This document shows positions 255-45,560 of a stretch of 64,000 nucleotides of DNA, in pieces. A program made the translations under genes and the position numbers. A model generated the notes under the pieces. It worked only from the letters and a program-made list of their open reading frames with translations. It did not search any database and was not told the DNA's origin. Location of the stretch: NCBI GenBank assembly GCA_014871385.1, contig CM026433.1, positions 16,372,644-16,436,643 of the forward strand. The letters are read 5' to 3'. Each line of letters begins with the position of its first letter. Positions within the stretch are counted from its first letter, which is position 1. This stretch comes from Ceratodon purpureus. Its lineage: Eukaryota; Streptophyta; Bryopsida; Pseudoditrichales; Ditrichaceae.

Positions 255-2111
255 TGCATGGCGTGAAGGCTAAATTGCTTGGGGTTTTGGTTTAGGGTCG
301 AATTCATTTGGAGTCTGAGATGCGACTTTGGGTGTGGGGTTTGCTCATTTGAATTTTTGGGCTTTAGAGTATATGATCCTCGGTGTAAGGTACTTCACAC
401 CGGCGCCCTTCAAATAGCAACAACACCGTCTTCTAAGCCCACACTCCCTTCCGTCTCACCCCTCCTACACCGGGGGTCACACTAGTGTAAGTGACTCCAC
501 ATACACCCGGGTCACACCAGTGTAAGTGTGTCCACCTACACCGGGTCACACCGGTGTTACCTTACCGAGATGAGGTGTGAGTGTGCCCGCCTACACCCAT
601 ATCACACTGGTGTAACCTCAAGGGGATGAGGTGTAAGCTTAAACCACGTACACCCGGGGTCACACGGGTGTAACTCTAGGGAGATGAGGTGTGAGTGTAT
701 ATGCCGACACCCGGGGTAGAACTGAGGTGTAAGTGTATCGGCCTACACCTAGGTCACACTGGTGTCACCTTCGTTATATATGGTGTGAGCTGTGTGTCCG
801 CTTACACCGAGGGTCACACTGGTGTATCCTCATGGAGAAGAGGTGTGCGTGTGTCCGCCTACACCTAGCGCCACATTGTCCCCCTTCTCCTGACGTCACA
901 CTGTCTGCCTACACCCGAGGTCACACCAGTGTGATCCTTAGACGATAACTTGGTGTGAGTGTGTCAGCCTATACCTAAGGTCACAGCAGTGCAACCCCGC
1001 ATGTAGGAGGTGTGAGTGTATCTGCGTACACCCGGAGTCACACCGGTGTAACCCTTGTGATATTTGGTGTGAGTGCGTCCTCTTCGGAGCAAACGCCACG
1101 CATCCTTATTTGTCTTCATTGAAACATCGATTTCAATAGCACAATGCTTGCATGGCCGCGAAACTCTCAAAACTGAAAGTAGCGTGAAACAACACCCAGC
1201 ATGAAATCAATGAAAACAAACATGTAGAGGTGATGACAATTAAACAAAACACATACGAAAACAAAGGGGTCACACCAGGGGGGTTACAACACAGTGTAGC
1301 TAATGGCTAAGAGGGACACAGTTACACCTCTTTGCAAATGGGTACACCACGGGGTTACACCGGTGTAGCAAAGGGCTGTGGGGAACACCATCACACCTCG
1401 TCTGCAAACAGGTTACAGGACATGACGACGGGGGTTACACCGGTGTATCAAAGGACTCGCAGGGACACCATGACACCTTGTTTGCAAAGGGGTCACACCA
1501 AGGGTCACACTAGCGTAGCGAAGGGCTGAGGTGAACAACGTCACACCTTCTTTAAAAACGGGAAGTTGCACCTTGGGCGTTACACCAGTGCAGCAAGGGC
1601 TCTTCCGCCGATGCCCTCCCTTGTGTCCGCGCCCCCTCATCCGCCCGCGTGCACTCCTCTGTCCGCGCTCGTCCGCCCGCACCCCCACCATCCGCCCGCG
1701 TACGCTTGTCCGCCGGCGCCATCCCTCGTGTCCGCGTGTCTGTGCTCTTCCGCCCACGCCCCCTCATGCGGATGTGCACTCTCCTCCATCCGCACCCCCT
1801 CTTCCGCATGCGCCCTGTCTTCCCTCTTCGCCCTCCCTTCGGCCCGCGCAAGAATTTTAAGCCCAAAGAGATTTAAACTGTAACATAGCAACCACAGATG
1901 GAATAGCAATGGAGAATAAACAAATGTAAATGGATTATACGGCTGCAACAACTGCGGTGGAAAAAGCTTCCAAGACTCTTCCAGTCCTCAATAACGCGGA
2001 TACAATTCACTCGGCTAAGGAGTGCTACTCGTGAGCATTTAGGAGATCACCTAAATTATTCCCTGTCAATACATACTGGATTATATTGTCGCTACCTGGA
2101 ACATATATGTT
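255..2111 (+). repeat. composite satellite element, copy 1
   Basis: Blocks in order: unique flank 269-470 (contains TTTAGGGTCGAATTC), array A 470-1,063, unique A-B linker 1,064-1,268, array B 1,268-1,596, a CpG-rich C/T block 1,597-1,860 (CCGCCCGCG-like), and a unique tail 1,876-2,111. The tail holds GCATTTAGGAGATCACCTAA. Array A monomers carry the palindrome ACACCGGTGT followed by a CCTCA...TGAGG hairpin. Short open frames here are by-products of low-complexity repeats and are not genes. The tail abuts an ARM-like gene remnant directly, so the right junction lies near 2,104-2,111. Confidence 0.85.
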
Positions 2112-2922
2112 TGGAGCTGAAGCAAACCTTGCATTAATGCTTCTCATTGCTGTTGTCACAAACCCCGCCTCTAGAACATACTGACAACTCTTGGTATTTT
2201 TAATAAGCTCCAGTAAACATTGAGCAGCTTTCTCCCTCAAATCAATGCTAATTTCTTGACGAGATGCTAAAAGAAACAAATCGCCATCGGCTATTATTAT
2301 TGCTTCGTGCATGAAGAAAATAAATGACAAATATTAATACCTTCATCTGAGGATTGGTAGAGATGGAAGTTGTTTTTCAAGGATCTTGGAGAACATCCTA
2401 AGGTTGAGTGTCTTAAATGCACCACCTTAAGTGATATGAGCTATTTTTAGCATGAGCAAATTCGAAATAAAAATATGAGCACATTCGAAATAGGTATTCA
2501 CGAAGATTGCAAAAATTTGCAGCATGTAATTCGCATTTCTGAATTTTACAGAAAATTCCAAAGTACTAAGCAAGATTTAAACTGTTCTTGATCCATGATT
2601 CGTAGCAATAGCAAACATCATGAATCCAGTAACTACTGCTGTGAGTATCGAAAAAATAACCTTGAGCCTCTACAAAAGTGTGCCTGCTTGAACAATAAAG
2701 CGAAGCTTTGAGAATTGATAAACCGAGGAGCCCTTAAATTTAGAATGGGTCACACGATGTTGCAAAAGCGCTCTGCAAAATTTACAAAAGTGCTCTGCAA
2801 ATGTGGTATTTTTGCTCCCACACATGTAGCTTTAGCAATATCAAGCTGACCCCAAACCGATTTACCAGGAACTCATAATGGCGCCCCATGCAATCTAAAA
2901 CTGGCCCTCACTCAACTCAATC

Positions 2923-3581
2923 ATGCCCATGATCCCTGCAGTATGGAATTATGTCTACCAGATGGTGCTTCTGGAGCAATTTTGGCTGGTGCTTTTAGGG
3001 GGGGGGGGGGGGGGGGGGGGCGCTTATAGGTCAGTCGACCTTAGTCTTAAAATTCCTCAGAAAATATTTTTTTTGGATTCTGCGATTGACAGAAAAAATG
3101 CCAGATCCTGGAAACATGTCGTTGTCTGGAACTTACTAAGAGGAATTAGCCTCTGGATCATCTGGTTAAGCAGGAACAACAAAGTCTTCCATGGAAGTCC
3201 CTGGCACATTCAGCAAATCAGGCAAGCCGTGTGGGATGCTATTCTTGATTATGGCAGAGTTGCGTGGAAGAAAACACTCAAAAACATTAACAGGAGCAAT
3301 AGCGATGCTATGGTGCACAGTAACTTAGCAGCTTTCGACTCTGTGTGGTTAGAAAGAGAACTGTTCGCTACTAGGTCTGACCTCAAAGTGAGATGGAACC
3401 TTGTTCCACCTAACGGCATCATTCCAAATTGGCTCTGATTAGTTGATAGAGTCACTACTTGTTAAGTCCAGAAGTCCGTCCCTTCAGCCCTGGACCTTGG
3501 TCCGATGTGGGTTGTTTTGTTTTTCCTTTCCCTTGCAATGAAGTTCCGTTCATTTGCTTCAAAAAAAAAATAAAAAAAATA
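2923..3581 (+). mobile_element. 5'-truncated LINE (non-LTR retrotransposon) 3' end
   Basis: The plus-strand frame 2,923-3,438 resembles the C-terminal zinc-binding region that follows reverse transcriptase in plant LINEs: a W-x-LLRG segment, then LWIIWLSRNNKVFHG and a tryptophan-rich tail ending in IIPNWL. A roughly 120-bp 3' UTR follows and ends in an A-rich tail at 3,561-3,580, the hallmark of target-primed reverse transcription. No reverse transcriptase or endonuclease domain is present, so the copy is dead on arrival. A poly-G run interrupts its 5' part. It sits inside the ARM-like remnant in the opposite orientation. The domain call rests on pattern only. Confidence 0.65.
2998..3020 (+). 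repeat. poly-G homopolymer, 23 bp
   Basis: An uninterrupted run of 23 guanines inside the LINE remnant, encoding a glycine run in the plus frame. It could form a G-quadruplex or be an assembly length error. Confidence 0.9.
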
Positions 3582-4186
3582 TGTCGTTGTCTGCATGGAA
3601 TCCTCTCTTTCAATGTCAAATAAAAGCTGATCTATAACTTCCAAAAAGGTAAAGAGTAGTAACGTGGCAGGTTTCCCTACTTGTGCAGAGCAGAACTATC
3701 ATATCAATCAACACCTCCTTGAACTTGTTTCTTTTCTGATGGCTTATGGTCTTGACCATTTTAAGTAGTCCAGAAATAAGCCTTAGACCAAAGAGACCAT
3801 CAGGGATTTCGAATAGCAAATTCAGCTTAGCCCTCAATGCTTCATTTCTATTGATAAAGATGTCGGTACAAACTGCTTCATCATTTACCATCAAGCCAAG
3901 AAGTCCAGCGGCTGCATTTCTCACGTGTATTGGCCACATTTCACTAAGAAATTTGAGAACAATTTGAAGTGGCAACTGATCAACAAGGATAGCAATTTCA
4001 GGAGGCAAAGAGTGCAAGGCCACCAATACAACTTTTTGGCCATTTTGATCCAAATCTTCCAAGAAAGCCTGCAACAAAAGAATGAATTTCTTCAGTCAGG
4101 ATCACAATAAGGTTTGACACATAAGTTAAAATTTCATTTCCAGACACAATAATAATGTATAAATGTAAATTTCCACATTTATACAT

Positions 4187-4383
4187 CAGCCAAAGATCGT
4201 AAATTTAAAGTGCATGCAACAGGTAGCATGACAAATTTTGTAATCAACATTCTAAAAAAGAGAATGGCATCGACGTGAAGCAAACTTGAAATGTTTCTAG
4301 TGTTGAAACAACGACTCCAAATCCTGACATTGTGTGTTCATTCATAAAGTCAGTTGGAAGGTTAGATGCTAAAACACAATTTA
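4187..4383. other. decayed stretch between ARM-like and kinase remnants
   Basis: On the minus strand, traces of kinase homology persist (SGFGVVV near 4,310-4,335, similar to the SFGVVxLE segment of receptor kinases), but no frame is open. Probably the degenerated C-lobe of the kinase upstream. Confidence 0.35.
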
Positions 4384-5012
4384 CTGAGTGCCGAAGCAAT
4401 GTTGTAGTTGCTGCATTTCACTTCCATCCTTTGAGACCAGCAAAGCATATCGGAAACGAGTAATCTTTGGCTCTAGAGTGTGGTCCAACAAAATATTGCT
4501 TGCATTTCTGTTTCGATGGATAACTTTTGGTACAGCTACAGAGTGCAAGTACTGGATGCCATTAGCAACTCCTAGGCAAATGTTCTCTGTAAAGGCCAGT
4601 TCTTGTTGGCTTTCCCAGCATCCTCTACAAGAATCACGCAATATATCATTAGAACGCCTATCAAAAACGAATCCTCCCCACCATACCCAAAGCAGTAACA
4701 AATAAGTACCGAGTCAACAAACAAGCACTAGTATATCCTGATTCAATAAGTAGGTTTACACAAAAAATCTTCAGCTCAACCTCACCAGAAAGCCATTTAT
4801 CCAGCGAACCATTTGGCATGTACTCAAACACATGTATTGTCTTGTGTTTAGCATAACAAAATCCAACATACCCCACCAAATTGTGATGGTGAAGGCCTGA
4901 GAAGGACTCCACTTGAGTATTGAACTCGCCAAGATCTTGGACATACTTTTCAAATATCCTTTGCACTGCAACCTCCTCGCTAGTATCAATCATTACACCC
5001 TTGTATACCTGC
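4384..5012 (-). pseudogene. receptor-like protein kinase remnant lacking catalytic residues
   Basis: Two exon-like blocks on the minus strand. Block 1 (about 5,012-4,780) has VYKGVMID, then VAVQRIF where kinases have VAVK, then GLHHHNLVGYVGFCY and FEYMPNGSLDKWL, the normal N-lobe of plant receptor-like kinases. Block 2 (about 4,640-4,384) has LGVANGIQYLHS, then VIHRNRNASNILLDH where HRDLKxxN is expected, then ITRFRYAL in place of the DFG segment. The ATP-binding Lys, the catalytic Asp with its neighbouring Lys, and DFG are therefore all altered. No C-lobe is preserved. It could derive from a genuine pseudokinase, but its truncation and decayed surroundings favour a pseudogene. Confidence 0.75.
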
Positions 5013-5059
5013 TCGAGCCAAAACATCATAACACAAGCTGCCGTCAAAATGTTCACATT

Positions 5060-5555
5060 CGAACAGGTTAAGAATGATCAAAAAAAATTCACAGTTTTCT
5101 AATGCACAGTCAGCTGAATAGAAAAGCAATTGTACAATTCAATTGAAATCCGCTAATCCTCATTCCAAGAAGTCCTGAACTATGCCAAAGCTTTATCACT
5201 CCAATTTACCACAAGCAAGAAACCCATAATCACGATTTTTGAACATACTTCACCAGTTTCAAACATCTGAGTACTACAACATGATACAAGGCATAAAAGT
5301 AGGTTTTGTGCACCATAGTGTGTGCTTCCCAGCTTAGCATATTTTCCTCGCTGAAATTCTTTGTCATTCTTATCACCTTATCCAAACTGAAGCAACGAGG
5401 AGCTTTGGAACATGCAGCTGCATATCAACTAAACCACCACTCATAGTGTCACTTTTGAAGCTGGTAAGGAAAGTCAGTTAGACAAAACAAATAAAAGCAT
5501 CTAGTTTAGGTTTACATTTAAAGACTGCTACCACTGCTCAAAGTAGACACTAGCC
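5060..5555. other. no gene seen
   Basis: About 500 bases between two kinase remnants, AT-rich with no supportable frame. Probably intron or intergenic sequence. Confidence 0.5.
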
Positions 5556-5559
5556 ATGT

Positions 5560-7045
5560 TCATACAGGGAAAAAACCATTACATTCCATAAAAAGTTCAC
5601 ATTTCAGATGTCTCAATCCCGCACAAATGTCATCAAATCGTGGGCGCCTGCTAGGTTTTGAACTCCAGCATGCCTCGATCAAGGCCTTCAACCTCTCCGG
5701 ACATCCATCTCGTAATTGTGGACGAACACCACCGAGTACCTTCGTCTTCACTTCTTTGAGACCAATCATTGAAAAGGGGACGTTCCGAGTTAGAATTTAT
5801 AACACACCGTTCCAAAGCTGTAAACGTCGCTTTTGAACGGATACTTCAATTGCACCTTACTGTCTACATCACTCCTTCACCGTCATCGTTATCAACTCTG
5901 ATCATTTCTGGCGGCATCCATCTTGTAGTACCCATGTTTAAAGTCTGGATGGAAGCTGTCATGCTTCTCTCCTTCGTTCTAGACAATCGAAAATCTGTCA
6001 CCTTGACATGCAAAAACTTAACATCCACTTTTGCTGATTTCACACGCCTCACCACAATGTTCTTCAATTTCAGATCTCTATGCACAATTCTATTTCCATG
6101 GAGGAAAAGCCTCCCTTCCACCACTTGCAGTATGATATGGACTGCCTCTGGAATGGAGAATGGAGGATCACCAAATTCACAATTTTCCAACCTTTGATGG
6201 ATCAGAGCATAAAAGTTCCATCCATCAACTCCATGATGATGTAACATTTGCGCTCATCCGTTGTTTACCAAAGCAAGGATACAATATTTGGATGGCATAA
6301 TCCATCTAAGATTGATACCTCCTTCCAGAAATTTGGATCACTGAGTCCATGGAAAGCCTTCTTGGCAATGTATATATTGTCATTCACACCAAACGTAGTC
6401 CCCCGTAGGGATTCATCAGGTTTGAATTCAACTACGTCGCCTAGAGTACGACTACTCTAATTGAAGGAGGCATGTTCATCCCACCTAGCTCATTCTCTAC
6501 TCCGGGCGTATGCGTCTTGTTTTCTTCCTATGAGTAGACAGCATGTGTTGATTTTCACACCGCTTTGTTGTTGAGACAAGCATTTAGGAGATCACCTAAA
6601 ACGTGACGCCTATAAACTCTACCTCACCAGAGTAGACTTTAATTCATCGACCCCCTCCATTCCGTGTGGTACCTTGCGTGGGAGAAAAACTATATTTCTT
6701 TGTTCCACCTCACTCCACGGTGTCGACCTCGGTAGACTTTGTAATCTCCACCTTCCTCTTCTCGCTTTCATCCTCGTTGCTTTCTGTTGTCTCTCCACTA
6801 TGAGATGATATCACTTGAGTTTTTGAGCCCTTTATTGTTATACCTGCAAGGTGACCTGCCGAGGAATTTCGGACAAGGGAAGGCCCCACAAATTTGTGAT
6901 GAGATGATGTTGTTGTGGTAGGGGGAAATGGAGGCGATTGCATCCGCATATCATGATCAGCAGAGATGTTGACGTCGCGGATTCTGATCGGTGGAGAAAT
7001 TCCACAAGGATTGGAATCCTTATCGCTCTTCACATTCTCCTCCAT
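5560..7045 (-). pseudogene. plant TKL protein kinase (DUF1221-kinase-like), copy I, multiply broken
   Basis: From the 5' end on the minus strand: an N-terminal region 7,045-6,712 rich in Ser/Thr/acidic residues (IRIRDVNISADHDMRMQSPP), then a kinase domain 6,440-5,563. The domain shows DNIYIAKKAFHGLSDP, HPNIVSLLW, CYIIMELMDG, IVHRDLKLKNIVV, VTDFRLSRTK (DFR instead of DFG), GTTRWMPPEM, KSDVYSFG and RRPRFDDICAGLRHLK, the last typical of plant DUF1221-type kinases. Breaks: an in-frame TAA after HPNIVSLLW (near 6,270), a one-base loss at MELMDG/NFYALIH (near 6,215), a frameshift before DSKVQLKYPFKSD (near 5,862) and another at CY/ILTRNVPF (near 5,795). Composite copy 2 replaces the extreme N-terminus. 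Three further 5' fragments exist at 12.8-14.0, 38.4-38.8 and 39.7-40.9 kb. Confidence 0.8.
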
Positions 7046-8785
7046 GGAGTCTGAGATGCGACCTATGGTGCCGGGTTTGCTCAATTGAGTTTTTTGGCTT
7101 AAGAGTGTATGATCTTCGGTGCAAGGCACATCTCACCAACGCTCTTCAACATAACACTGTCTTCCAAGTGCACACTCTCTTCCGTCTCACCCCTCCTACA
7201 CCGTGGGTCACACCATGGACCTACACCCGGGTAACACCACTCGAAGTGTGTCCACCTACACCCCGGTCACACCAGTGAAAGTGTACCCGCCTACACCCGG
7301 GGCCACACCGTCCGCCTACACTCGGGGCGACACCGATGTAACCTCGCCGAGACGAGGTGTGAGTGTACCCGCCTACACCCGGCGCCACACCGTCCGCCCA
7401 CACCCGATGTCACACTGGTCTAAACTCACGGAGACGAGGTCTGAGTGTGCCCGCCTTCACCCGGGCTATGGTGTAAGCTCATGGAATTGATGTGTAAGTG
7501 TATCGGCCTACACCCGGGTCACACCGGTGTGAGTGTGTCCGCCCACACCAAAGGTCACACTAGTGTATCGTCATGGAGAAGAGGTGTACGTGTGTCCCCC
7601 TACACCCGGCGCTACACTCTCCCCTTCCCCCGACGTCACACCGTCCGCCTACACCCGGGTCCCGGGGTCACACCGGTGTGGCACAGGGATGTGGGGAACA
7701 CCACTTCGCAAATGGGTACACCAGGGGTGTAGCAAAGGGCTGTCGGGAACACCGTCACACCTTTTTTGCAAAGGAAGTTACACCATTGGGTCACACGACT
7801 ATAGCGAAAGGTTGTGGGGAACATCGTCACACCTCGTCTGCAGACGGGTCACACGACGGGGTTCACACCGGTGTATCAAAGGACTCGCAGGAACACCATC
7901 ACACCTTCTTTGCAGAGGGGTCACACCAAGGGGTCACACCAGTGTAGCGAAGGGCTAGGGGGACACCGTCACACCTCGAGGGTCACACCGGTGAAGCCAA
8001 GGGCTCTTCCGTTGGCCGCCTCCCTTGTGTGCGCGCCCTCTCATCCGCCCCCGTGCACTCCTCCGTCCTCTCTCGTCCGCCCGCTCCCCCCTCATCCACC
8101 CTGCGGACGCTCATCCGCCCGCGCCCTCCCTCGTGTACGCGCACTCTCCCCTGTCCGCACCCTCCTTCCGTCGGCGCCCCCTCATCCGCATGCGCACGCT
8201 GCTACGTCCGCACCCCCTCTTCCTCATGCGCACGCTGCTTCGTCGGCACCCCCTCTTCCGCCCACGCCCCCTCATCTGCATGGGCACGCTGCTCCGTCCG
8301 CACCCCCTCTTCCACCCGCGCCCTGTCTTCCCTCTTCGCCCTCCCTTCGGCCCGCGCACGCGCTTCCGTCAGCGGTTCAAAACTGTAACATTACAACTAC
8401 GGATGGAATAGCAATGTAGAATAAACAAATGTGAATGGATTATACGGCTGCAACAACTGCGGTGGAAAAAGCTTCCAAGACCCGTCCGGTCTTCTCTCGG
8501 CTAAGGAGTGCTGCTCGTCAACATTTAGGAGATCACCTAAATCATCCCATGACAATACACGTGGGATTATATTGTTGCCACCCAGAACATATGGACAGTC
8601 CGCTGTGTGTCTATCTATTAAAGTCTATTATCACGGGGCCTTGGAAGTCTTAGAGTTTGGTTTCTTTTTGGTTAAGTATGTATATGAGAAACATGGAGAG
8701 AGTTTAGATTTACTGGCTCTCCGCATGGTTGATTTGCTTACTTGGATTTTTGATGTTAATTCAGTTCAGCAGCATGGCTGTCAAA
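7046..8785 (+). repeat. composite satellite element, copy 2
   Basis: Flank 7,046-7,195 (starts at GGAGTCTGAGATGCGAC, the first part missing), array A 7,196-7,680, array B 7,680-8,000 joined directly to A because the linker is absent, CpG-rich block 8,002-8,375, tail 8,378-8,785. The tail runs further than in copy 1 and includes a plus-frame segment (YEKHGESLDLLALRMVDLLT) that is also present in copy 4. The junction with the kinase remnant shares the bases TGGAG. Confidence 0.85.
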
Positions 8786-9205
8786 CCATGTATTTTGACA
8801 TATTTGAAGCTTCTCATAAGTGGGCTTAGAATGTTGGGAGAAGAGTTTCGATGTGGAGATGGGGTTTTCTTTTGTGTTGGTACAAGGATTATGTGTCTTT
8901 TTGAAGAGGATGTGAGTAAGTGGGGTTGTAAGGTGGGATGGAGTGTTTGGAGTTTTGGTGTAGGTTCCGGGATTGTACTAGATTGTGTTTTGTGGGGGGA
9001 TTCTCTAGTTTGAGTTGGGTTTGACGACGTTTTGGTTTGTTTTTTTTTTTGGGGGTGAGATGAGCAAGGATTAGGTTGTGAATTGGATCTCGGTGGTTTG
9101 GAAGTTGGTTTGGTATTGAATTGGAAGATAGGTGGCGTAAGCTTTTAGAATTTGTGTCGAATTCCTTGGTGTTGAGGGATGGGATTTTCTTTTCTGTGAA
9201 TGCAG
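8786..9205. other. no gene seen; G/T-rich strand
   Basis: Plus strand rich in G and T, with a 13-T run near 9,040. It probably holds the lost first exon and intron of the FMN/FHY copy downstream, but no aspartate-rich HAD motif can be read. Confidence 0.4.
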
Positions 9206-11578: not shown

Positions 11579-11874
11579 AGCTCCTCTTCCGAGATTGAAG
11601 TCATCTCTCACAGATACTCTGTTACAACATTGAACCCATTCTGATTCCACTACTAGCATAATTGTTGAAATGTACTCTTGGTGGTGCCAATTTGATTCGA
11701 AATTACGTTTTAATAAAGTGCGAGAAGACAACTGTTGTAGGATCCGATTCCAGGTCTTCCTAAACGTCTATATCCCATCAATGTTACTATTATGGAACGT
11801 TTTGATCAACCATGTGAAAGTCTAGTAAAAAGCCACAAAAATTTGCTCCGCTTCCGGTATCAGAGGCAAAATCA
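11579..11874. other. 3' flank of the FMN/FHY copy
   Basis: Directly follows the TAG stop. AATAAAG-like signals occur near 11,712, which could be the old polyadenylation region. No other gene is seen. Confidence 0.4.
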
Positions 11875-15010: not shown

Positions 15011-15145
15011 CGGAGATGAGGTGTGAGTGCATCGGCCCACACCCGGGGTCACACCGGTGTACACTCACGGAGATGGGGTGTGAGTGTGCCACCTACACCC
15101 AAGTCACACTCTCTACCTACACCCGAGTCACACCGGTGTAATTTT

Positions 15146-25500: not shown

Positions 25501-25504
25501 TGAT

Positions 25505-26000: not shown

Positions 26001-26047
26001 TGGTGTTCGCTACAGGTTTTCCTAACATCCTTTTGCTTATCAATAAA

Positions 26048-30735: not shown

Positions 30736-30739
30736 ATTC

Positions 30740-33065: not shown

Positions 33066-34060
33066 ACCAGCCATCCAAAAACTCAATCTATAAGTCCTCC
33101 GGGGGCTCCAAGAAGTTCACGGAGTCTTATAGAGGAAGGTTATACAATTACTCGGACGTGCAAGAAGCAAAGGCAATTGGCGCTGCAATGAAGAATTTCG
33201 ATGCTCAATAAGGCTGCAACGGGGCTGGAAAATCAAGCTCGAAGTCAACCTCCAACCGCAAGTGATGGATTCCGTGATAAATACGTCCAGAAGTATGCAG
33301 TAGTAATGCTCTAATGTTTAGGGTACACAAGCCAACCTTAGTTTGAGGATGTAGACCGAAACGCATCTTTTATCTTTTTGTGTCGAAAATGAATACCCCC
33401 TCAGGGGATAAAAGAAGCTAGAAGCATCAATGTTTATGAGCCTACTCACGTAATGCAATGGATGCTTCTTAGCAATCAATGACCATTTCTCCCATAACGA
33501 GATACCAATAACTTTGATAAAGGATACTTGTACAATTATCAGGCAATGCTTATCGGCGATGCTTATCAAGCATTGCCCCCTATTAACAATAGCTATATAC
33601 ACAAATGCAGTCAATATGTCCTACTTTGGTAACAAAAGGATTCATCAATTTTTGACTTGCGCAAAAATTCACAATCGAGAATCAACTATAAAGAGATTTC
33701 CATAGAGCTAAGACGGGAACCAAGGTTACAGACAAACACACATTCTTCCAATATATATATGAGAAAGTGTGCATTTGAGCGGCTCTTATTTGTAGTATTG
33801 AAAATGTGGGATTTCAGTGCAAGCTCTCTACATGCCAAAGGACGTCATGGTGGATCTCACACCAAACTCATACATGGTGATCAACAATGAGCTGTCCCGG
33901 TTGCAAGATTAGTTTACGTGCTGCATCCCCAAACATGCAAGTAACTGCACAAGCTATGGACTTCTTAGAAAATTCTAGAATACAAGCATGCCGCGAAAAA
34001 TTCTAACTTGGTGAATGTACTTCTAATTGGTTCAACGCAACATTTCGCCAATCACCTAGG
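33066..34060. repeat. R1 block, copy c
   Basis: Follows the copy 5 tail without a gap. The plus frame SGGSKKFTESYRGRLYNYSD then QEAKAIGAAMKNFDAQ is open here, whereas copies a and b carry a stop after QEA. The minus frame ACILEFSKKSIACAVTCMFG near 33,990-33,930 matches copies a and d. The block breaks off near 34,060, where the LRR kinase remnant begins. Confidence 0.75.
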
Positions 34061-34186
34061 CTCAAACCAGACTTCTAGAAAATTACTACAGATTTTGTAG
34101 CTCGAGCGTTAGCGCTGCTAGAAGATTCGTCTTTCCTAGCTCACTATGTATCTCGGATATATATCTAACGTTTCCTGTGATAAAAC

Positions 34187-37130
34187 GTGTGTGGTTACAG
34201 GCCTGATCATGCAATGCTGAAGGTAAGCGATATCCTGAGGCTCAGAGTAGAGGAAAAGGCGAGAGAGAAGAGCTTTCGGCACCGTCGCTCACAAGTTGAT
34301 TCAACTATGAGAAACGGGATCATACATAGCACATTTATATTGCTTGTATTCTTCTTCCTTTTGGCATCCTCGACCGTTGCATTATCAGCTGACGGTATGC
34401 TTCAACCGTATGCTTTGACGACATTTGAGTCATTAGACGGTCTTTTAAAGCTTGTCAAACTAATACGCTCTGTGTTCAAGTGTGGCATTGATATCGTTCA
34501 AAGCACTTCTAAGCGATCCGAAGGAGTATCTTGCGAACTGGAACGAAGCGGAAGCCGACCCTTGCAGATGGACTGGAGTTAGGTGCTTGCCTGAAACACG
34601 CCGCGTGCACATGCTGTAAGTAGCCCTTCTTTGCAAAACCTCATTGGTTTGCTCATCAAGTGCTCAGAGCTATGATCAAGCAAAAATTTGGTTACAGAAG
34701 TCTCTTTAATGAAAGTTGTTGCTTCATTTTGCCTACGTTTATCTTCAAAAAAATTAGGCTCGCCAAAATCTTGTGATATTGGACTTGAGATGAAGGACAT
34801 GAAATTATATCAATCCGTGAATTTTCCAAGGTAATGGCCTCTAAACGGTTGCGAGGATCTATATCACCAGCCATTGGCAAGCTTGGGCAGCTCCGTAGAG
34901 TGTTTGGCCTTGATCCAATAAACCTATAAGCCCAATCTCTAATATGGTTTAGTAATCTATTTGGTTTGAAGGCCTCAATGCTGCAAATATCATCTCGGTA
35001 CTGCTTGTGTCCTAAACATTGAAGGAGATTGAAGGCTGTCAATTCTCTTTGGGTTCAGGCGATATCTTGTGCACATACCGTGCCATGTTAGTCCAAGAAA
35101 TTGTCCTCTCAATATTTCTTTAAAGTGATGTTATTGCACCCGCAAGTAGTTGCAGAATTTGTCTCGCTTATTTCTAAACCGTGATTTTGTGCGTGTTACA
35201 GGAACTTGCATGCAAACCAGCTCTATGGACCAATTCCAAAAGAACCTGGCGACTGCAGTTTGAATTGAGATATTTGTAAGTTCTTTTTTAATGTTCCGAG
35301 GAAGTTTTGGTCAAGGCCATGACGTTCCCAATCAGGCAGTCCCACAGCTATCAATATGAAAAGAAATCAGTCCATTCAGTTCTATTATTTGAACCAAATG
35401 ATGTCCTTTTTTAATTTGTGAAACCCCACAAATCTTTTGACCATAACGTTACCTTTCATGTTCTGACCGCTGTGTATAATTAATTGGCTTGGATATTTCT
35501 GCAGATATCTACAGAAGAACTATCTCATTGGGAACATACCAACAGAGCTTGGAAAGCTCAGTCTTCTCAAAGCTTTGTAAGTGAGATCATCATACAAAAT
35601 CAATGTGGCAGCATTTGACGATTTATGTTGTACAAGGTTTGAAGTTCTAAAATCTTACAAAGTGAGTTTTGACCCGAGAGAATTTACTCATAATATGCAC
35701 TCTAAACTTGCAGGAACTTCTATAGTTCGAAACTTGCAGTAAACTTCCATATTTCTCTTGATTAGTGCTGTATGCATCGCCCTACTAATTGTTCTAGTGT
35801 GCTTTTGGTGCTGGTTCTTACGAACCGAGTATGGAACCCAGGAGAATGGTTTTGCCAAGGATGCTGAAGGTGCTTACCCCTGCTCTATCCTGTCAGTTTA
35901 AAATGTTCATCTTAATATATGTATAGTAGGAAGTGATTCTGAGGGGAGTGACTGGGATTGCGATATCCAGCTTTTCTTTGAGAGAATGATCTTACTTGAG
36001 TTTTGATTTTTTCGTGACCATGCTTAGTAGTGTTACTGTTCAAATCATCAAAATCATAAGTTGTTTTTCTCTGACCATGCAGCATACCACGGAGCGAAGG
36101 TGGTCAAATTCCATGGCGACTTGACTTACACATCCATGGATATCCTCAAGAGAACAAAACCGCTCGACGAGAGAGATATGATTGGCTCTGGGAGATTCGG
36201 CACTGTGTACCGCCTAGTTATGGAAGATGGCAACAGCTTTACTGGGAAGCGGATTGGGGTATTGGAATTATCATCTGATGCTGTCTTTGAAAGGGAGTTG
36301 AAGATCTTGGGTTTAGGGTCAAGCATGGAAACCTTGTGAACCTCCGTGGATACTGCATTTCCCCAGTTGCCAAGTTTCTGATATATGACTATCTACCTCG
36401 CGGAAATCTAGAAGAATCTCTACACGGTGTGTTTCTGACTCCTCTGTTCCCCTTTTGTGAATTTTTCAGCTGGATTGATCTAACGCTATTATGAACCTGG
36501 CTAAGAAAACTTGTTCCTAGATCAATATATTCCATTATATAGAATGTTGTCCTTGAAGTCACTGAGATTTCTCTGAGGATTTTCCCTAAGTAAAGCCTTT
36601 CACAGCCATCTTGTTTACACATGCATGTCGTCACCAACTTGGGTCTCACATCGTCAATTTCCGCATCTTCCAGCAGACACAGAATGTTTATTGGACAATT
36701 GAATAATCGTCAATGATTCATGCGAAGTAACTTACAATCAATTGCTACTTGTCCATCAGATAGAGAGCTGCAAGCGGTAGTACTGAACTGAGCAGTGCGA
36801 ATGAGGATAGCCATTGGAACTGGCCAGGGGATTGCACACTTGGACCAAGGGTGCTTCCCTCCCATCGTCCACAGTGATATTAAGTCGAGCAATGTTCTGC
36901 TAGATGAGAATCTGGATCCAGTGCCAGAGGAGCGTCCTACAATGCACCGAGTGGTGCAATTACTGGAGACCATCCCCCACTTCCCCGGTCCCAGCGAGCT
37001 CACGAACTCCCACAGATCACCTCATTCTGTCAAGGAAGCCCGAGGCCGGTAGACAATTCCAAATTTTCCATAGGACAAGAAATGCCATAACACCAGCTCA
37101 AGGAGGTCTTAAGATCGTACCATAGAGATT
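34187..37130 (+). pseudogene. FEI-like LRR receptor kinase, deleted and frameshifted
   Basis: Order matches FEI-type LRR kinases (plasma membrane, few LRRs). Signal peptide from Met 34,307 (HSTFILLVFFFLLASSTVAL); LRRNT part to 34,615 (SDPKEYLANWNEAEADPCRW), in another frame; LRR exons 35,202-35,275 (NLHANQLYGPIP) and 35,505-35,575 (YLQKNYLIGNIPTELGKLS) with a frameshift at about 35,262; membrane segment about 35,760-35,870 (VCIALLIVLVCFWCWFL). Kinase exon 36,083-36,426 has IGSGRFGTVY and the lysine in FTGKRIG, with a frameshift near 36,318 before NLVNLRGYC. The last exon, about 36,796-37,052, has IVHSDIKSSNVLLDENLDP (HSD for HRD) joined directly to PEERPTMHRVVQLLE, so DFG through subdomain X is deleted. 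About five LRRs are expected; two are seen. Confidence 0.88.
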
Positions 37131-38385
37131 AATATGTACGACATCAGTTCTTCGGTTACATGGTGGCTTGTATCTGAGGATCCAAGTACATTTGCCACTC
37201 TCCAGTTTTATTTTCTAAAACTGCTGCAAAGACGGTCAGGCTGGACCATAATGGTATACTGGCCCAGATTAACATCAAAGAATTGACCTCCACAAAATAT
37301 GCAAAATATCCAAGGATCAACAGATGCCATTCTCCTTAGGTTTGCATCCCCAAGGTGACGGGTGGTGTTTGTATGAACTCCTAGGCCAAGGATGTAAGCC
37401 AGCCTTCCATTTCTTGTACATTATACATCTGAATAATCAACGCTCGGAAAGCACTATTAGAGCTAAATGCGCTTTGATTACTTCCTCTTTGGACACAGGA
37501 TCTGGATCATCTCTAAAAAAGATGACCGGAATGAAACGATTGGAGCCTCTTGGAATGAAATGTCACAACCATACCTGCCAAATGCAAGGGCATGAAGTTG
37601 ATACCAGCCATTCATATTCGAATCATGTGGGAGGGTTCATAAGTAAAAAAATTCAAGATACTTATTACATGTTTTATGTTTTAGAGCTGATGTGTGGGGA
37701 TCTTATCAAGTGAATTTCTCTTCTTCCTTGTGCAGAACCTTGGATAGTTTTAGAATCTGAGTTGACCGCATTAACTCACAACCCCGATCAGCTACTTCTG
37801 GATTTCATATCTCTTCAGTCTTAGCACTGAGCATTTTTGATGGCTCCACAGATTGTTGATTAGCAAGTTTCTCAACGGCCCTCTGTCTAATCTATGCAAA
37901 GTTTTAGGATCATCCTTCCTCCCTTACACCACAGACACTTTGCTTCTCTGGCTGTAAAAGTTCTTACAAGTGTGTCAAATGGGGAGAATGTATTCGTTAG
38001 ATCTGTTAATCTATCATGAGCATCACGTTTTCCAAATAACCGCACAAAGCTTGCATGTGCGATTTGAAGAAATATGACGATTAAATATAATGATTACAAT
38101 CCTTTTGAAATGAAGTAAATTTAATTATAATTATTCAATGCTCATAAATTTTGTTTTAAATAAAAGTAGAGATCTCAAACTTATAGCATGTTGTTAAATA
38201 ATTTAAAAGAAATCAATGTAATTTATTTCAATATTGTTATTAAAATTTTACTTAAAAACTCTCTAAATTTATCTCAATTCTTTAATTGGAAAATAAGTCA
38301 TTAAAATATTTGCATTCTCTATGAAAACTAACTTCCAATTCAAAGGCAGTTTACACTATAGACCATACAAATTGACTCTAGTCTT
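37131..38385. other. no gene seen; AT-rich
   Basis: Intergenic sequence after the LRR kinase remnant. 38,040-38,340 is very AT-rich. No supportable frame or repeat. Confidence 0.5.
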
Positions 38386-38832
38386 CAAAGCTCGCATTCA
38401 GAGTGAAAAATGCAACGTCATCGTATATATTGTCATTCACATCAAACGTAGTCCCCCGTAGGGGTTCATCAGATTTGAATTCAACTACGTCGCCTAGAGT
38501 ACGACTACTCTCGAAGGAGGCATGTTCATCTCACCCGGCTCATTCTCTACTCCGAGCCTATGCGCCCTGTTTTCTTCCTGTGAGGAGACAGCATGTGTTG
38601 ATTTTGTCACCGCCTTGCTGCGGAGACAAGCATTTAGGAGATCACCTAAAACGTGATGTCTATAAACTCGAATCCTTCTCATCTGAAAAGAGATAAGGCA
38701 TCAGCTTCCACATCTCAGACACTATTCATAGGGTCAGAGGAAGCCATCCCAGGGTACGGTCGGGCTGCCACATCCACAATCGTCAGTGACTCTGGATGGC
38801 TCATTCTTCTACTTTCGAGAGATGAGCCCCCC
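38386..38832 (-). pseudogene. TKL kinase 5' fragment, copy III (short)
   Basis: On the minus strand it carries part of the Pro/Ser region (PYPGMASSDPMNSV) and the HHVLGDLLNACLRSKAVTKS stretch preceding the kinase domain, plus the start of the N-lobe (PDESLRG-like near 38,465). The middle of the N-terminal region is deleted. It is joined at about 38,832 to R1 copy d through the shared phrase GGGAAATCAAGCTCG. Confidence 0.65.
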
Positions 38833-39650
38833 GGGAAATCAAGCTCGATGTCGACCTCCAACCGCAAGTGATGGACTCCGTGATAAGTACGGCGAGGAGC
38901 ATGCCGTAGTAATGCTCTAATGTTTGTGTACATAGGCCAACCTTAGTTCCAGGATGTAGACCGAAACGCATGTAGACCTAAACCTCAGGAGGTAAAAGAA
39001 GCTGGAAGCCTCGATGTTTATGAGCCTACTCACGCAATGCATCCGGTGCTTCTTTGCAGTCGATGACCATTTCTCCCATAACGAGATAGCAATAACTTTG
39101 ATAAAGGATACTTGTACAGCTTATCGGCGATGCGTATCAAGCCTTGCCCCCCATTAACAATACCTTTATACACAAATGCAGTCAATATGTCTTACTTCGG
39201 TATCAAAAGGTTACATCAATTTTTGACTTGCGCAAAGGTTCACACTTGGGAAACAACTATAAGGAGATTCCTACGTACGGGGCAAAAACAGAAACCAAGG
39301 GAACAGACCCACGCACATTCTTCCAATACATATATGAGAAAGTATGCATGTGAGCGGCTCTTATTTGTAGTATTGAAAACGTGGGATTGCAGGCTCTCCA
39401 CATGTAAAAGGACGTCGGGGTGGATCTCACACCAAACTCATACATGGTGATCAACAATGAGATGTCCTGGTTGCAAGATTAAATTTTGTGCTGCATCCCC
39501 AAACACGCAAGTAACTACACAAGCTACGGACTTCCTAGAAAATTCCAGAATTGAAGCATGCCCCGAAAACTTCAAACTTGCACCTGAATGTACTCCTAAC
39601 TAGTTCAACGCAACATTTCGCGAATCACCTACGCTTAGACCAGAGTTCCA
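38833..39650. repeat. R1 block, copy d
   Basis: Near-identical to copy a over about 770 bp (12,025-12,800), 26.8 kb apart in direct orientation. It retains the about 120 bp that copy a lost next to the kinase fragment. Confidence 0.85.
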
Positions 39651-40906
39651 GGAAATTACGACAGACTCATACTCAAACCTCGCATTCAGAGTGAAAAATG
39701 CAACGTCATCGTCTATATTGTCATTCACACCAAACGTAATCCCCCGTAGGGATTCATCATATTTGAATTGAACTACGTCGCCTAGAGTACGAATACTCTC
39801 GACGGAGGCATGTTCATTCCACCTAGCCCATTCTCAACTCCGGGCCTATGCGTCCTGTTTTCTTCGAGTGAGCAGACACCAGGGGTTGATTTTGTCACCG
39901 TCTTGCCGCTGAGACAAGCATTTAGGAGATCACCTAAAACGTGACGTCTATAAACTCTACCTGAACATGGTAAACTTGTATTCATCAAACCCCTCCATTC
40001 CGCATGGTACCTTGCAAGGGAGGAAAACTAAATCTCTTTGTTCCACCTCACTCTACGGTGTCGACCTCGGTAGACTTTGTAATCTCCACCCTCCTCTCCT
40101 GGCTTTCATCCTCGTTGCTTTCTGTTGTCTCTCCACTATCATATGAAATCACTTAAGTTTTTGAGCCCTTTATTGTTACAGTTGCAAGGTGACCTGCCGA
40201 GAATATCGGACGAGGGACGGCCTCACAAATTCGTGATGAGATGATGTTGTTGCGACAGGAGGGTTTAGAGGCGATTGCATCCGCATATCATGATCACCAG
40301 AGATGTTGACGTCCCGGATTCTAACCGGTGGAGAAATTCCACAAGGATCGAAATCCTTATTGCTGTTGACATCCTCCACCATGGTATACCCCTCAACGTC
40401 TCCACCTCGATCCACAAACCTCCACCTTGACATGCCTCGCCATCAACGTTGTGTTCTTCTAATACCTTATTCTCAATCGACGATGGTCCGCTCGTGTCCT
40501 GAGTAGAGTGACTGCCACGTCGGGTTGCTCGCTCGAATCCTTCTCATCTAGGAAAAGATGAGGCATCAGCTCCCACATCTTGTGCACTATGTACAGGGTC
40601 AGGGGAAGCCATCCCTGGGTACGGTGGAGCTACCACATCCACAATCGTCCGTGAGTCTGGAGGGCTCATTCTTCTACTTCCGAGAGGTGAGCCACTGGGG
40701 GCCGTCTCTACAGTCTGCAATCTGCATGAGTAAGTGCGATGGATAAGTGGGTCGAGAGGTGAAGCTGCAAAGTCAATTGGCGAGTCTGAGAGAAGGAAAC
40801 CGATCGTGAGAGGAGGGAACGAATTGAAATCGTGGACATCGTTGTGGGTAGAGGCGGTTGGGTCTTGGCACCGTTCGGAAATCAATGTTGTAATTGCGAA
40901 TGGCAC
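39651..40906 (-). pseudogene. TKL kinase 5' fragment, copy IV
   Basis: The minus strand begins at 40,906 (MPFAITTLISERCQDPTAST), with the same Pro/Ser region, acidic tail (TESNEDES-like) and RRHVLGDLLNACLSGKTVTK stretch as copy I. It ends near 39,690 at the point where copy I continues into its kinase N-lobe; here the frame continues instead as DDVAFFTLNARFEYESVVIS. Frameshifts near 40,550 and 40,430. Nearly identical to copy II. Confidence 0.7.
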
Positions 40907-41104
40907 GGCCCGAACAATTTCGCACTTTGAAGCTCTGTCTTGTCAGAGAACTCTAGAAAGCATGTGCAAGTGGGCTGTGTTCCATCGGCACTATTGAGAG
41001 AGGGGCTCGTTGAGGAGCATTGCAACACAGCCAGCAGCCAATCGTCGGCGACATCCACGGCGCTCTATCACCAGTGACGGGTAGATCAAGGATAAATTAG
41101 AATT

Positions 41105-44100
41105 GGGAGGTTGAGGTTTTAGGGTCGAATTCATTTGGAGTCTGAGATGTGACTTTGGATGTTGGGTTTGCTCAATAGAGTTTTGGGGCTTCAGGGTATA
41201 TGATCCTTGGTGTAGCGTACTTCACACCGGCGCCCTTCAAACAGCAACAACACCGTCTTCCTAGCGCACACTCTCCCCCGTCATCGCCCTTCTACACCGG
41301 TGGTCACACTAGTGTAATTGTGTCCACCTACACTCGGGTCACACTAGTGTAACTCCAAGGAGATGAGGTGTGAGTGCATCGGCCTATACCCGGGGTTACA
41401 CCGGTGTGATCCTTGGAGGACGAGGTGTGAGTGTGTCCAAGTACACCCGGGGTGTGGTGTATGCTCACGGAATTGAGGTGTGAGCGCATCGGCCCACACC
41501 TCGGGTCACACCAGTGTACCGTCACGGAGATGGGGTGTGAGTGTGCCATCCTACACCCAAGTCACATTGTCCGCCTACACCCGGGTCACACCGGTGTAAT
41601 TTCACAGAGATAAGGTATAGGTGTGACCGCCTACACCCAAGTCACACTCTCTGCGTACACTCAAGGTCACACCCGTGTAACCTCACGCTGAGGAGGTGTG
41701 TATGACTGCCTACACCCGAGTCACACCGGTGTAACTTTAAGGACATGAGGTGTAAGTGCATCGGCCTACACCCGGGGTCACACCGGTGTGAGTGTGTCTA
41801 AGTACACCTAGGGTGTGGTGTAAGCTCAAGGAATTCAGGTGTGAGCGCATCGGCCCACACCCAGGGTCACACCGGTGTACCCTCACGGAGACGGGGTGTG
41901 AGTGTGCCAGCCTACACCCATCGTGCCAGTGTCCGCCTACATTCGGGGTCAGACCGGTGTAACCTCACGCAGAGAAGGTGTGTGTGACTGCCTACACCCG
42001 GGTCACACCAGTCTAACTCCAAGGAAATGAGGTGTAAGTGCATCGGCCTACAACCAGGGTCACACCGGTGTGAGTATCTAAGTACACCTGGGGTGTGGTG
42101 TACGCTCACGGAATTCAGGTGTGATCGCATCGGCCTACACCTGGAGCCATAGTAGTGTCACCTCACGGAGACGAGGTGTGAGTGTGCCCGCCTACAGCGG
42201 AGGTCACACCGGAGGTCATAGGAGGGGTCACACTGTCCGTCTACCCCCGGGTCACAACGGTGTAACCTCGCGGACATGAGGTGTGAGTGTACCAGCCTAC
42301 ACCCGGCGTCACACTGATGTAACTCTACGGGATGAGGTGTGAGCTGAAACCACGTATAGCCCGGGTCACACGGGTGTAACTCTACTTGCATCAGGTGTGA
42401 GTGTATGCTTACACCCGGGCTGTGGTGTTAGCTCATAAAATTGAGGTGTAAGTGTATCGACCTACACCCAAGTCACACCAGTGTCGCGTTTGTTATATAT
42501 GGTGTGACTGTGTCCGCTCACACCGAGGGTCACACTAGTGTGACTTCACGGAGAAGAGGTGTGCGTGTGTCCGTCTACACCTGACGTCACACTGTCACCC
42601 TTAACCCCCAACGTCACACTGTCCGTCTACACCTGGGGTCACACCGGTGTGACCCCTGTTATGTATGGTGTGGGTGTGTCCGCCTACACCTGGGGTTATA
42701 CCAGTGTGATCCTTGTGATATTTGGTGTGAGTGCATCCTCTTCTGTAGCAAACGCCATGCATCCTCTTTTCTCTTCGTTGAAACATCCGGTTCAGTAGCA
42801 CAATGCTTGCAAGACGAAACTCTTGAAACTGAAAGTAGCGTCCAGACACTCTAACAACACCCAGCATGAAAACAATGAAAACAAATATATAGAGGTGAAG
42901 ACAACTAACAAAACACAAATAAAAACAAAGGACTACACCAGGGGGGTTACACGGTGTAGCTAATGGGTAAGAGGGACACAGTTACACCCCTTTGCAAAGG
43001 GGTGACACCACGGGGTTACACGGGTGTAGGTAAGGGCTGGGGGGGAACACCACTTCGCAAAGGGGCTACACCAAGGGTTTACACCAGGGAGTTACACGGG
43101 TGTAGAGGAGCTTGGCTCATGGGAACACTATCACGCCTTGGTTGCAAAGGAGTGAGCGGACTGCTTATCAGCGTGTGAGATTGAATGAAACACAGTTTCA
43201 GGCAATGCACTATTTCCTTTGAAGGGGAAATCAAGATAAGAAATAAAATAATGAATCCAGCATAAAATCAAGTTTCATAAATATTATATTTTATCCTCGT
43301 AAAAGTGAATGAGTATCATAAAGCAAACCCATCGAGCGGAGCGAGAAGGGTTTGACTAAGGGCAATGGGTCCGGTAGGACCCATTGCCCGTTACGTCTTA
43401 GGGTTATCTCAAAACAATGGATGTGGAGTAGCTGGGGTTGATCTCATTGAATTTTAGGTTTTATAGCCCCCATATTCATCCGGGTTATGTTAAAAAATAA
43501 ATATGACCCAAGCTTACCATATCAAAAGGGTTTAGGGTGCAAGAAACACGTGTACAAAAATCATTTATCTCAACATATGCACTCGATCTAATTAATCAGA
43601 TTAGTTATTTATTTGTAAGAAAATCACGAATGTAACAACTACATTTTTGAAAAGTTAACTTGGGATGCTTTGAATCATAAAATCAAATAAGTAAATCATC
43701 CTAGCTTCAGCACATAGTCACGTTATTTTCCTATAGAATCCGCTATGTGTACCTCAAAATATAGACTCTCAAAAGACTACCTCCAAGGAAAAACACCGAG
43801 GGGTTATACAGTCACACCTTATTTGCAAAAGAATTACACCAGTGATCGGGCTACATCAATGCGTCAATGGACTAGGAGGAATCCCGTAACACCTTCTTTG
43901 CAAAGAAGTTACATCAAGGGGTTACACTGGTGTAGCTACTAGCAAAGGGCTGTGGGGAAGACCGTCACACCTTGTTTGCAAACGGATTACACGACGGGGG
44001 TTACACTAGTGTATCAAAGGACTCGTACAAACACCATTACACCTTCTTCGCAAAGGGTTCACACCAGCGTAGCGAAGGGCTTAGGTGAACACCGTCACAT

Positions 44101-45560
44101 CTTCTTTACAAACGGATTACACCACAGGGGTTACACCGGTGCAGCTAAAGGCTCTTCCGCCCGCGCTCTCTCTTGTGTCTGCGTACACTCCCCCATCCGC
44201 GCTCGTCCGCCCGCGCCCCCTCATCCGCCTGCGTACGCTCGTTCGCCCGCGCCCCTTCTTCCGCCTGCGCCATGTCTTCCCTCTGCGCCCTCCCTTCGGC
44301 CTGCGCACTCTCTTTTGTCAGCGCTCGTGCGCCAGCATCCTCCTAGCCCATACGCCCTCTAGCGTCAAGTCCGCGCCCTATGGCATCTGTTGAATCAAAG
44401 CCGGACTTATTGACTTGTTCATTTTATACGATGCCGAGTATTCCGGTTGCCCCGATAAAATCCACGCAATTTAGTTGATCTTTTGAGCACTTCTCTGAGT
44501 CTTTAAAAATCGTTGTATTGTTTTGAAGTGATTCTCTTAGAAGTAGGTACTTGCGGTAGAAATAATTTCTATCGTTTTATTGATGTTACTCTTGAACATG
44601 ATGAACTAATTAATCTGGCGTAGATTCAAGTGGTGGTCTCGAAGATGACTTTTGAGTTCACAATCAGGATCTAAGGGATGACCACACCGAAGTGCATAAC
44701 CACGTATTCAACAAACTTGGCAACGAGGTGTTTCCTGGGAGCAACATTGCGGACGCTCCTCCAACAATCTCTGGAGTATAAGGGCACAGAGCACAACAAC
44801 ACACAAGGCCATGACTACTTTTGTAATGTACCATATGTTGGCACGAAGGCATCACCAGTGCGTCCACAAAGATCAGATCAACCAGCTATGTATATCAAAT
44901 ATTTAGGAAAAACTTCGAGAGACTCAATCAATGAGAAACAAGATGTGTCATGTGGGCAAGAAAAGGAGAAAAAAATGAGTGTACATGATTATTCTTGTGT
45001 TCGTTGGATTCAGGTGATCACGTAAATCCTAGCAACCCCCTGCGACACCGTGACATTACATAACTTGAATTTCGACATGAATTAACAAGATCACGAGGTG
45101 GATACACATCTTCCTCGCATGTTACTACATAGAAACTAAAGTCTGTAACGAAGAGCTATAGAGCGTTCAAGATGTATACCATGCATGATTTGAACTCAGT
45201 ATTTTCCTTCCAAGCATTCATATAAGCTAGATGGAAATTGCCTCCGAAAAGTTCAGAAGTAGTTTGGGCGAGGAATAGAACGAATGAAATATAAGCCCAA
45301 AGAGGGTAAAACTCTTACATAACAACCAATAATGGAATAGTAATGTAGAATAAACACATAAGAATGGATTATACAACGACAACAACCGTACCGGCAAAAG
45401 CTTCCAAGTCACAACCAATCCTCGGACCTCAATACCGCAAAAACAATTCACTCAACTATGGAAAAGTGCTCAGCACCATTAACGAGGTCACCTAAAATAA
45501 TCCCTAAGAATACACGCTCCCTTATAATTTCGCCACCCCAAACATATGAACAAGTATCAC
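41105..45560 (+). repeat. composite satellite element, copy 6
   Basis: Flank 41,105-41,290; array A 41,291-42,717; linker 42,718-42,932; array B segment 42,933-43,180; AT-rich segment 43,180-43,790 with an empty TTAA site at 43,592; array B segment 43,791-44,150; CpG-rich block 44,150-44,375; extra segment 44,376-45,290; diverged tail 45,291-45,560. At 42,640-42,657 an array monomer contains the perfect 18-bp palindrome GGTCACACCGGTGTGACC. The tail runs straight into the 375-bp satellite. Confidence 0.85.
44678..45025 (+). other. open frame shared with composite copy 3
   Basis: Counterpart of 19,949-20,269. From LATRCFLGATLRTLLQQSLE to VRWIQVIT and stop, the two copies align with amino acid changes and one 21-nt in-frame difference (GTKASPVRPQRSDQ against GTKGLDQ). 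No known family is recognised. Confidence 0.35.

Follow-up and report, generated by a model that had tools for sequence, protein, structure and literature searches.

What builds a stretch of chromosome in which the same satellite-bearing composite returns six times, each time followed by different gene cargo? The question is raised by a window of 64,000 nucleotides (the whole stretch of DNA that was analysed) from Ceratodon purpureus (assembly GCA_014871385.1, contig CM026433.1, positions 16,372,644 to 16,436,643 of the forward strand), for which a preliminary description had left two possibilities: a large non-autonomous element that inserts repeatedly, or a macrosatellite that takes up cargo. 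Of the two, the macrosatellite agrees better with the data, the sharp edges of the composite speaking for an element, and the absence of transposon hallmarks within the range of our scans and the reshuffled flanks against it. The window contains modules shared between copies, mosaic copies, joints both occupied and unoccupied by cargo, and short overlaps at deletions. To our mind the most probable reading, at roughly 55%, is a macrosatellite-like cluster whose units multiplied, were rearranged through recombination and received gene copies during the repair of breaks; how and in which direction each event ran, and that the cargo stems from break repair, we infer.

Self-BLAST of the window (E ≤ 1e-8, pieces of at least 120 bp) and module alignments give six related composites, a recurrence far above chance, all on the plus strand and with a common module order of flank, array A, (linker), array B, CpG-rich block and tail. 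This is the order first described, except that the linker, previously counted in every copy, is present in four of the six (U1, U3, U5 and U6). The composites, with left edges accurate to about 15 bases, are:

263 to 2106, plus strand: composite U1 (flank 263-465, array A about 466-1077, linker 1078-1262, array B about 1262-1594, CpG-rich block 1594-1850, tail 1850-2106; from self-BLAST, module alignments and edges)
7047 to 8592, plus strand: composite U2, linker not found, left end truncated by a deletion with a 3-bp overlap
14144 to 20798, plus strand: composite U3, long form with expanded array A (4.4 copies of a 135-bp unit at 14443-15029)
23053 to 23506, plus strand: extra array-A piece ahead of U4 (Tandem Repeats Finder, TRF; self-BLAST)
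23507 to 24899, plus strand: composite U4, linker not found (self-BLAST, alignments)
30942 to 32887, plus strand: composite U5 (self-BLAST, alignments)
41092 to 45547, plus strand: composite U6, long form (self-BLAST, alignments)

Core lengths from U1 to U6 are 1844, 1546, 6655, 1393, 1946 and 4456 bp (a range of 1.39–6.66 kb), and pairwise local identity is 78–94% in the flank, 77–93% in the tail and 85–94% in the four copies of the linker. The U1 linker was found neither by alignment in U2 (7600-7760) or U4 (24080-24260) nor among the self-BLAST rows. Two of the starts first proposed have had to be moved: the one at 23,045 belongs to the stray array-A piece, the U4 flank beginning at about 23,507, and the one at 30,740 is early, the U5 flank beginning at about 30,942, after the module P1. 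The long forms, U3 and U6, have an additional block within array B (1621 and 913 bp relative to U1) and a block of about 0.9–1.0 kb between the CpG block and the tail.

The copies also have neighbours in common: P1, or P2 with a “preflank,” on the left, and on the right a tail extension (“ext”) with Q, or a further context, X. These are distributed as follows:

1 to 131: P1 left of U1, clipped by the window start, 86% identical to 30790-30920
30790 to 30941: P1 left of U5 (self-BLAST; left limit undefined since the U1 copy is clipped by the window start)
6370 to 7046, minus strand: P2 left of U2, by eye the 5′ portion of a gene of kinase type; identity to the P2 copies of U3 and U6 89.5% and 88.3%
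12821 to 14143, minus strand: P2 and preflank left of U3, 93.1% and 96.6% identical to the U6 copies
39673 to 41091, minus strand: P2 and preflank left of U6 (self-BLAST, alignments)
8593 to 8788, plus strand: ext of U2 (U2 and U4 tail plus ext 92.8% identical)
11878 to 12824: Q after U2, 88.2% identical to Q of U5
24900 to 25510, plus strand: ext and truncated Q after U4 (self-BLAST, alignments)
32888 to 34092, plus strand: ext and Q after U5 (self-BLAST, alignments)
38385 to 39665: U5b, a reduced unit without composite, comprising a P2 piece and a preflank piece (remnant 38,385-38,828) and Q (38,833-39,665)

Modules common between copies, in the same order, stand left of five of the six composites (P1 in two, P2 in three) and right of five (ext/Q in three, X in two), X being the weakest shared context (U3-U6 windows 0.50–0.77). 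Ext and Q follow U2, where they are split by cargo, as well as U4 and U5, and Q adjoins P2 at 39665/39673 and, via a deletion, at 12824. P2 copies left of U2, U3 and U6 are 88–93% identical and the preflanks of U3 and U6 96.6%; the closest module pair is Q at 12033-12824 against 38833-39624. The intervals had been described as holding unrelated gene remnants, which is true of their cargo and not of P1, P2/preflank and ext/Q, which recur between them. We suggest that a discrete repeat-rich module would have been multiplied together with these neighbours by segmental duplication, in a single orientation. Stretches rich in satellites are easily misassembled, and the window might in principle be a chimera of wrongly joined reads that bear the repeat; we consider such an artefact highly improbable, since the modules differ by 2–29% between copies (the closest Q pair excepted, at 99.5% identity) and hence are not duplicated reads, and since occupied and unoccupied joints align within a few bases.

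The left-hand modules suggest another origin. P2 runs into the kinase remnant left of U2 (continuous by eye; kinase Pfam matches), and P1 or P2/preflank, with open minus-strand frames, lies directly left of five of the six composites, as might be expected if minus-strand kinase genes once stood here in tandem and have degenerated, the composite being their intergenic spacer (upstream region) and P1 and P2 the 5′ ends of genes since lost and replaced. This we hold to be unlikely. Kinase-domain remnants are continuous with P2 in one interval only, the tested frames of preflank, P2 and P1 are without a Pfam match, and there is no clear third-position excess among the differences in the P2, P1, Q or preflank copies. 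At codon positions 1, 2 and 3, the P2 differences number 16, 6, and 7 (U2-U3), 16, 9, and 10 (U2-U6), and 8, 8, and 7 (U3-U6), those of P1 in its open frame 4, 10, and 4, and those of Q by phase 38, 31, and 42. In the absence of such an excess, the P1, P2, and Q copies appear to evolve as non-coding sequence and do not look constrained as genes; a kinase gene cluster under selection was rejected on the same counts.

That the copies have exchanged parts is seen most clearly in U2 and U4. Their identity is 77% in the first 100 aligned columns, then rises through 82, 87, 92, 94, and 96 to 98% across array A and stays at 90% or above to the end of ext, so that U2 and U4 have a recent right half in common, and not a left half. 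Quartet sites change with it: for the groupings U2U4|U1U5, U2U1|U4U5, and U2U5|U4U1, in that order, we count 2, 7, and 2 in the flank, 5, 0, and 0 in the CpG block, and 11, 1, and 0 in the tail, and the flank tree pairs U1 with U2 (support 0.71) where the tail tree pairs U2 with U4 (0.997), sisters there (97.6%). In U3-U6, windows are 79–100% identical up to the tail, the last three being 77, 79, and 69%, a drop that may reflect either exchange or quicker change. The outer contexts are reshuffled as well, P1 pairing with ARM-like cargo on the right in U1 and with ext/Q in U5, and ext/Q on the right pairing with P1, P2, or an array piece on the left, as exchange between copies would give. We believe that copies would have swapped halves inside array A through non-allelic recombination or gene conversion.

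Where the composite ends can be read from its edges. We compared left windows 60 bp outside the TTTAGGGTCGAATTC anchor (background 95% point 0.63, 99% point 0.70); U2 was omitted on the left, where a deletion truncates its flank, and U5 on the right, where a deletion lies at the edge. The left windows give 0.50–0.67 in the eight pairs from different contexts and 0.87 in U3-U6, which have a common context; U1-U5 gives 0.60 despite the shared P1, probably because the windows are not indel-corrected. Past the right-hand ...ACATAT, identity drops at once to 0.50–0.60 in eight different-context pairs, stays at 0.87–0.90 in U2-U4, and in U3-U6 runs through 0.77, 0.70, 0.63, 0.73, and 0.50. Within the window the edges are thus sharp against three different neighbours on the left (P1, preflank, and an array piece) and three on the right (ARM-like cargo, ext/Q, and X), which makes the composite a real unit.

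Such edges give weight to the rival in which the composite is a non-autonomous transposable element (e.g., Helitron- or Helentron-like, with satellite-like central arrays) that was inserted repeatedly and later duplicated and recombined, a possible reading, if on the unlikely side. Also in its favour is a near-palindrome, ATTTAGGAGATCACCTAAAT, 41–50 bp from the right edge in four of the six copies (U1, U2, U4, and U5); its lack in U3 and U6 counts the other way. The preliminary description had proposed to decide the matter by self-comparison, copy boundaries, and target-site duplications (TSDs), and within the window this yields shared sharp edges and no pair of terminal inverted repeat (TIR) and TSD at the edges of a composite. 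The scan for exact TIRs of at least 12 bp with a direct repeat of at least 3 bp over positions 1-49000, shorter or inexact TIRs lying outside it, returned two pairs (0–1 in 10 shuffles), at 33977-34352 and 40696-48769. The latter (3-bp repeat) encloses U6 but begins about 400 bp outside it, inside the preflank. The same scan did not report one insert within U3:

18023 to 18880: TTAA-flanked insert, 858 bp with flanks, with inverted ends CCCCTAAACGGCCA/TGGCCGTTTAGGGG, absent at the corresponding place in U6; presumably akin to non-autonomous elements of piggyBac or Harbinger type

Helentron/HINE elements of DINE-1 type have subterminal inverted repeats (subTIRs) of 11–13 bp near both ends. In U1 and U3 to U6, the first 120 bp compared with the last 150 gave no subTIRs better than shuffles, the longest matches being 6–8 bp exact or 9–10 bp with one mismatch and equalled by at least 73 of 200 shuffles. 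Helitron-type 3′ ends (a hairpin, then CTRR) number two in the window as against 0–7 in five shuffles, neither at a composite edge, and a Pfam search of 27 distinct protein pieces, a part of the window's frames, gave no transposase domain. Furthermore, all six composites have one orientation, and their flanks are common to and reshuffled between copies, which independent insertions alone would not give. A long terminal repeat reading of the TG...CA edges was rejected, since the bases flanking U1, U3, and U4 mismatch on the two sides and no primer site was recognised by eye. Nothing in the window matched Rfam or was called as a tRNA, and one array pattern and one flank pattern, searched as exact patterns, had no match in viral and prokaryote collections, from which records of the host may be missing. 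Given the sharp edges, the composite may nevertheless have begun as an element.

The core of the near-palindrome, GGAGATCACCTAAA, has eight plus-strand and no minus-strand sites in the window, starting at 2042, 6587, 8528, 13001, 24844, 32828, 38637, and 39925. The tails account for four of these and the P2 modules, which are not otherwise related to the tail, for the other four; this core is perhaps a conserved binding site or a small insert.

In the favoured cluster reading, the gene copies would have been pasted between the composites and hence not carried by them. The cargo and associated inserts are:

2107 to 6370, minus strand: ARM-like pieces and two kinase-domain remnants (PK_Tyr_Ser-Thr / Pkinase matches at 4661-5077 and 5864-6253), continuing into P2
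about 3116 to 3593: 3′ end like that of a long interspersed element (LINE), with A-rich tail, inside the ARM-like cargo and between 13-bp direct repeats ATGTCGTTGTCTG at 3116 and 3581
8789 to 11877, plus strand: broken copy, introns included, of an FMN/FHY-type gene, lying between ext and Q (Flavokinase PF01687, E = 9.8e-31)
20860 to 23050, minus strand: AAA-ATPase remnant of midasin/RNF213 type (AAA_5, E = 3.2e-6)
25513 to 25670, minus strand: inverted tail piece of 158 bp between Q and the UPL7-like cargo
25671 to 30780, plus strand: UPL7-like gene remnant and unidentified sequence (open frames)
34093 to 38375, plus strand: broken copy of an FEI-like leucine-rich repeat (LRR) receptor kinase gene, situated between Q and P2 (LRRNT_2, E = 1e-8; Pkinase, E = 2.5e-15)

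ARM, UPL7, and FEI are names from the preliminary description, which we take over as presumptive labels; searches back only the kinase, LRR, flavokinase, and AAA assignments. The ARM-like pieces have no Pfam match above cut-off, nor does the UPL7-like cargo, which has no PDB match either. The frame at 20910-21488, to which the AAA_5 match also belongs, has midasin as its best PDB match (E = 2.4e-25), with RNF213 from E = 1.1e-8, and the FMN/FHY-type and FEI-like Pfam matches were obtained with exon peptides joined by hand. The LINE label is likewise presumed, the insert having no Pfam match.

Two of these copies can be compared with a joint that lacks them. The FMN/FHY joint is empty in U4 (25095/25098) and U5 (33069/33072), and with U2 and U4 as tail sisters, a single insertion in U2 is more economical than a pair of matching deletions. 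The FEI-like joint is without cargo before U6, where Q and P2 are seven bases apart (39665/39673). The ends of the FMN/FHY cargo show no TIR and no duplication above 2 bp, and the FEI-like cargo no TIR and no direct repeat above 2 bp (both by eye). At the joint of the UPL7-like cargo, the inverted 158-bp piece, 92.0% identical to the U5 tail (32772-32934) and 76.2 and 77.5% to those of U4 and U2, looks like templated filler; it is an exception to the plus-strand orientation described earlier, which holds for the six composites. Three of the four deletion joints examined overlap by 3–4 bp, namely P2/flank of U2 (7045-7047, 3 bp), Q/P2 before U3 (12821-12824, 4 bp), and P2/preflank of U5b (38667-38669, 3 bp), and the fourth, preflank/Q of U5b, has four extra bases. 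In a decaying cluster of this kind, within a nuclear genome that by its gene types appears to be a plant's, pieces would be lost by microhomology-type deletion, and unrelated gene copies, introns included, would be pasted into module joints during double-strand break repair.

Several observations weigh against this account. Composite starts are spaced irregularly, about 7–10 kb apart, and duplication with random breaks would not predict that both edges recur unchanged, each in three contexts that are unrelated; this suits an element with defined ends. The flank quartets also join U2 with U4 when the other pair is U3/U6 (13, 1, and 0 sites) or U1/U6 (5, 2, and 1), so that the left-right conflict of U2 and U4 rests on the U1/U5 quartet and the steep gradient; the U4 flank is the least similar to the others (72–81%), and uneven rates may contribute to the contrast. 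As to the cargo, the FMN/FHY and FEI-like inserts could each carry a 2-bp duplication (CA and GA, respectively), the FEI-like joint has a single comparator, the events are few (two inserts and a filler), and copying from elsewhere is assumed.

The arrays had been called palindromic, and a 10-bp palindrome, ACACCGGTGT, does occur 47 times in the window; folding leaves the arrays not clearly distinct. DNA-fold z-scores against shuffles are −0.96, −2.88, and −1.83 for three stretches of array A and −0.17 and +1.65 for two of array B, compared with −0.31 for CpG block, +0.53 for tail, and −2.12 for Q, that is, a single-stranded fold clearly better than shuffles in one of three array-A stretches and in neither of array B. 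As a strong feature, array hairpins were rejected, the folding signal being weak and the arrays not clearly exceeding the comparison stretches. TRF periods are about 25, 35, 57, 82, 135, and 270 bp in array A, 71–72 bp in array B, and 18–19, 36–37, and 54 bp in the CpG block. In 250-bp windows of the CpG blocks, CpG observed/expected is 1.08–1.25 in U1-U4 and 0.87 in U5, and none of the windows of the U6 block is above the GC limit of the CpG listing. A more far-reaching version, in our view improbable, would have the composite as a discrete unit with set ends, perhaps mobile at one time, and its palindromic arrays as the source of breaks, so that it acts as a standing trap that pastes whole gene copies beside itself and shuffles them via recombination in array A, a eukaryotic gene-cassette cluster.

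Inside the long-form block of U3 and U6 is a hairpin, GGGCAATGGGTCC-GGTA-GGACCCATTGCCC (17791-17820 and 43360-43389, with one mismatch in U3, by eye), and a frame at 19913-20269 there is without a Pfam match. The right end of the cluster is marked by two further satellites:

45582 to 47399, plus strand: 375-bp GC-rich satellite, 4.9 copies with 98% matches (TRF)
47464 to 48084, plus strand: 222-bp satellite, 2.8 copies, 64 bp beyond the 375-bp satellite (TRF)

An additional related stretch lies at 48559-48603. Homology of U3 20821-21000 to the 375-bp unit was not accepted (score 37, against a shuffle mean of 25 and maximum of 43). Beyond the array, at 48786-61000, are multi-exon gene-like frames, which we take to be GCN1-like and nucleoside-kinase-like.

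Macrosatellites and complex tandem repeats consist of multi-kb units placed head to tail, with internal arrays and recombination between copies; the units here differ in being strongly decayed, irregular in length, and parted by inserted gene copies. “Filler” or “patch” insertion during plant break repair leaves genic inserts without clear TSD or TIR, together with filler, and microhomology at deletions; here, by comparison, several events lie within one repeat cluster.

A plan of two arrays with unique blocks had been thought undescribed, which is not true in general. Cg_HINE, non-autonomous Helentrons of Crassostrea gigas, have flanks around one or, exceptionally, two consecutive satellite-like central arrays, and no TSD (PMC7492417), a plan alike to the present one in its unique flank modules and arrays and favourable to an element. 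HINE elements are dispersed in both orientations and have subTIRs (normally of 11–12 bp), a microsatellite in the left flank, and a palindrome at the 3′ end, whereas here no subTIRs were found, four of six copies have the palindrome, and the copies seen form one cluster in one orientation. The structure of DINE-1 and Helentrons is treated in PMC4067079. CACTA transposons have captured gene fragments and satellite DNA arrays, with subterminal direct and inverted repeats (PMC8978399); satellite arrays with host gene fragments are the likeness, and the lack here of TIR and TSD at composite edges, and of a transposase domain in the pieces searched, the difference. Gene capture by plant transposable elements is reviewed in PMC13317346. 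Among the top matches listed in one open-licence library of papers, none described this composite.

If the favoured account of a recombining, patched macrosatellite-like cluster is true, one 45-kb stretch records the growth of a repeat cluster, recombination within its arrays, and the uptake of gene copies at break sites, and the empty and filled versions of joints, side by side, would make break-repair gene movement directly testable. Should the composite instead recur at unrelated loci, it would represent a new family of satellite-bearing elements.

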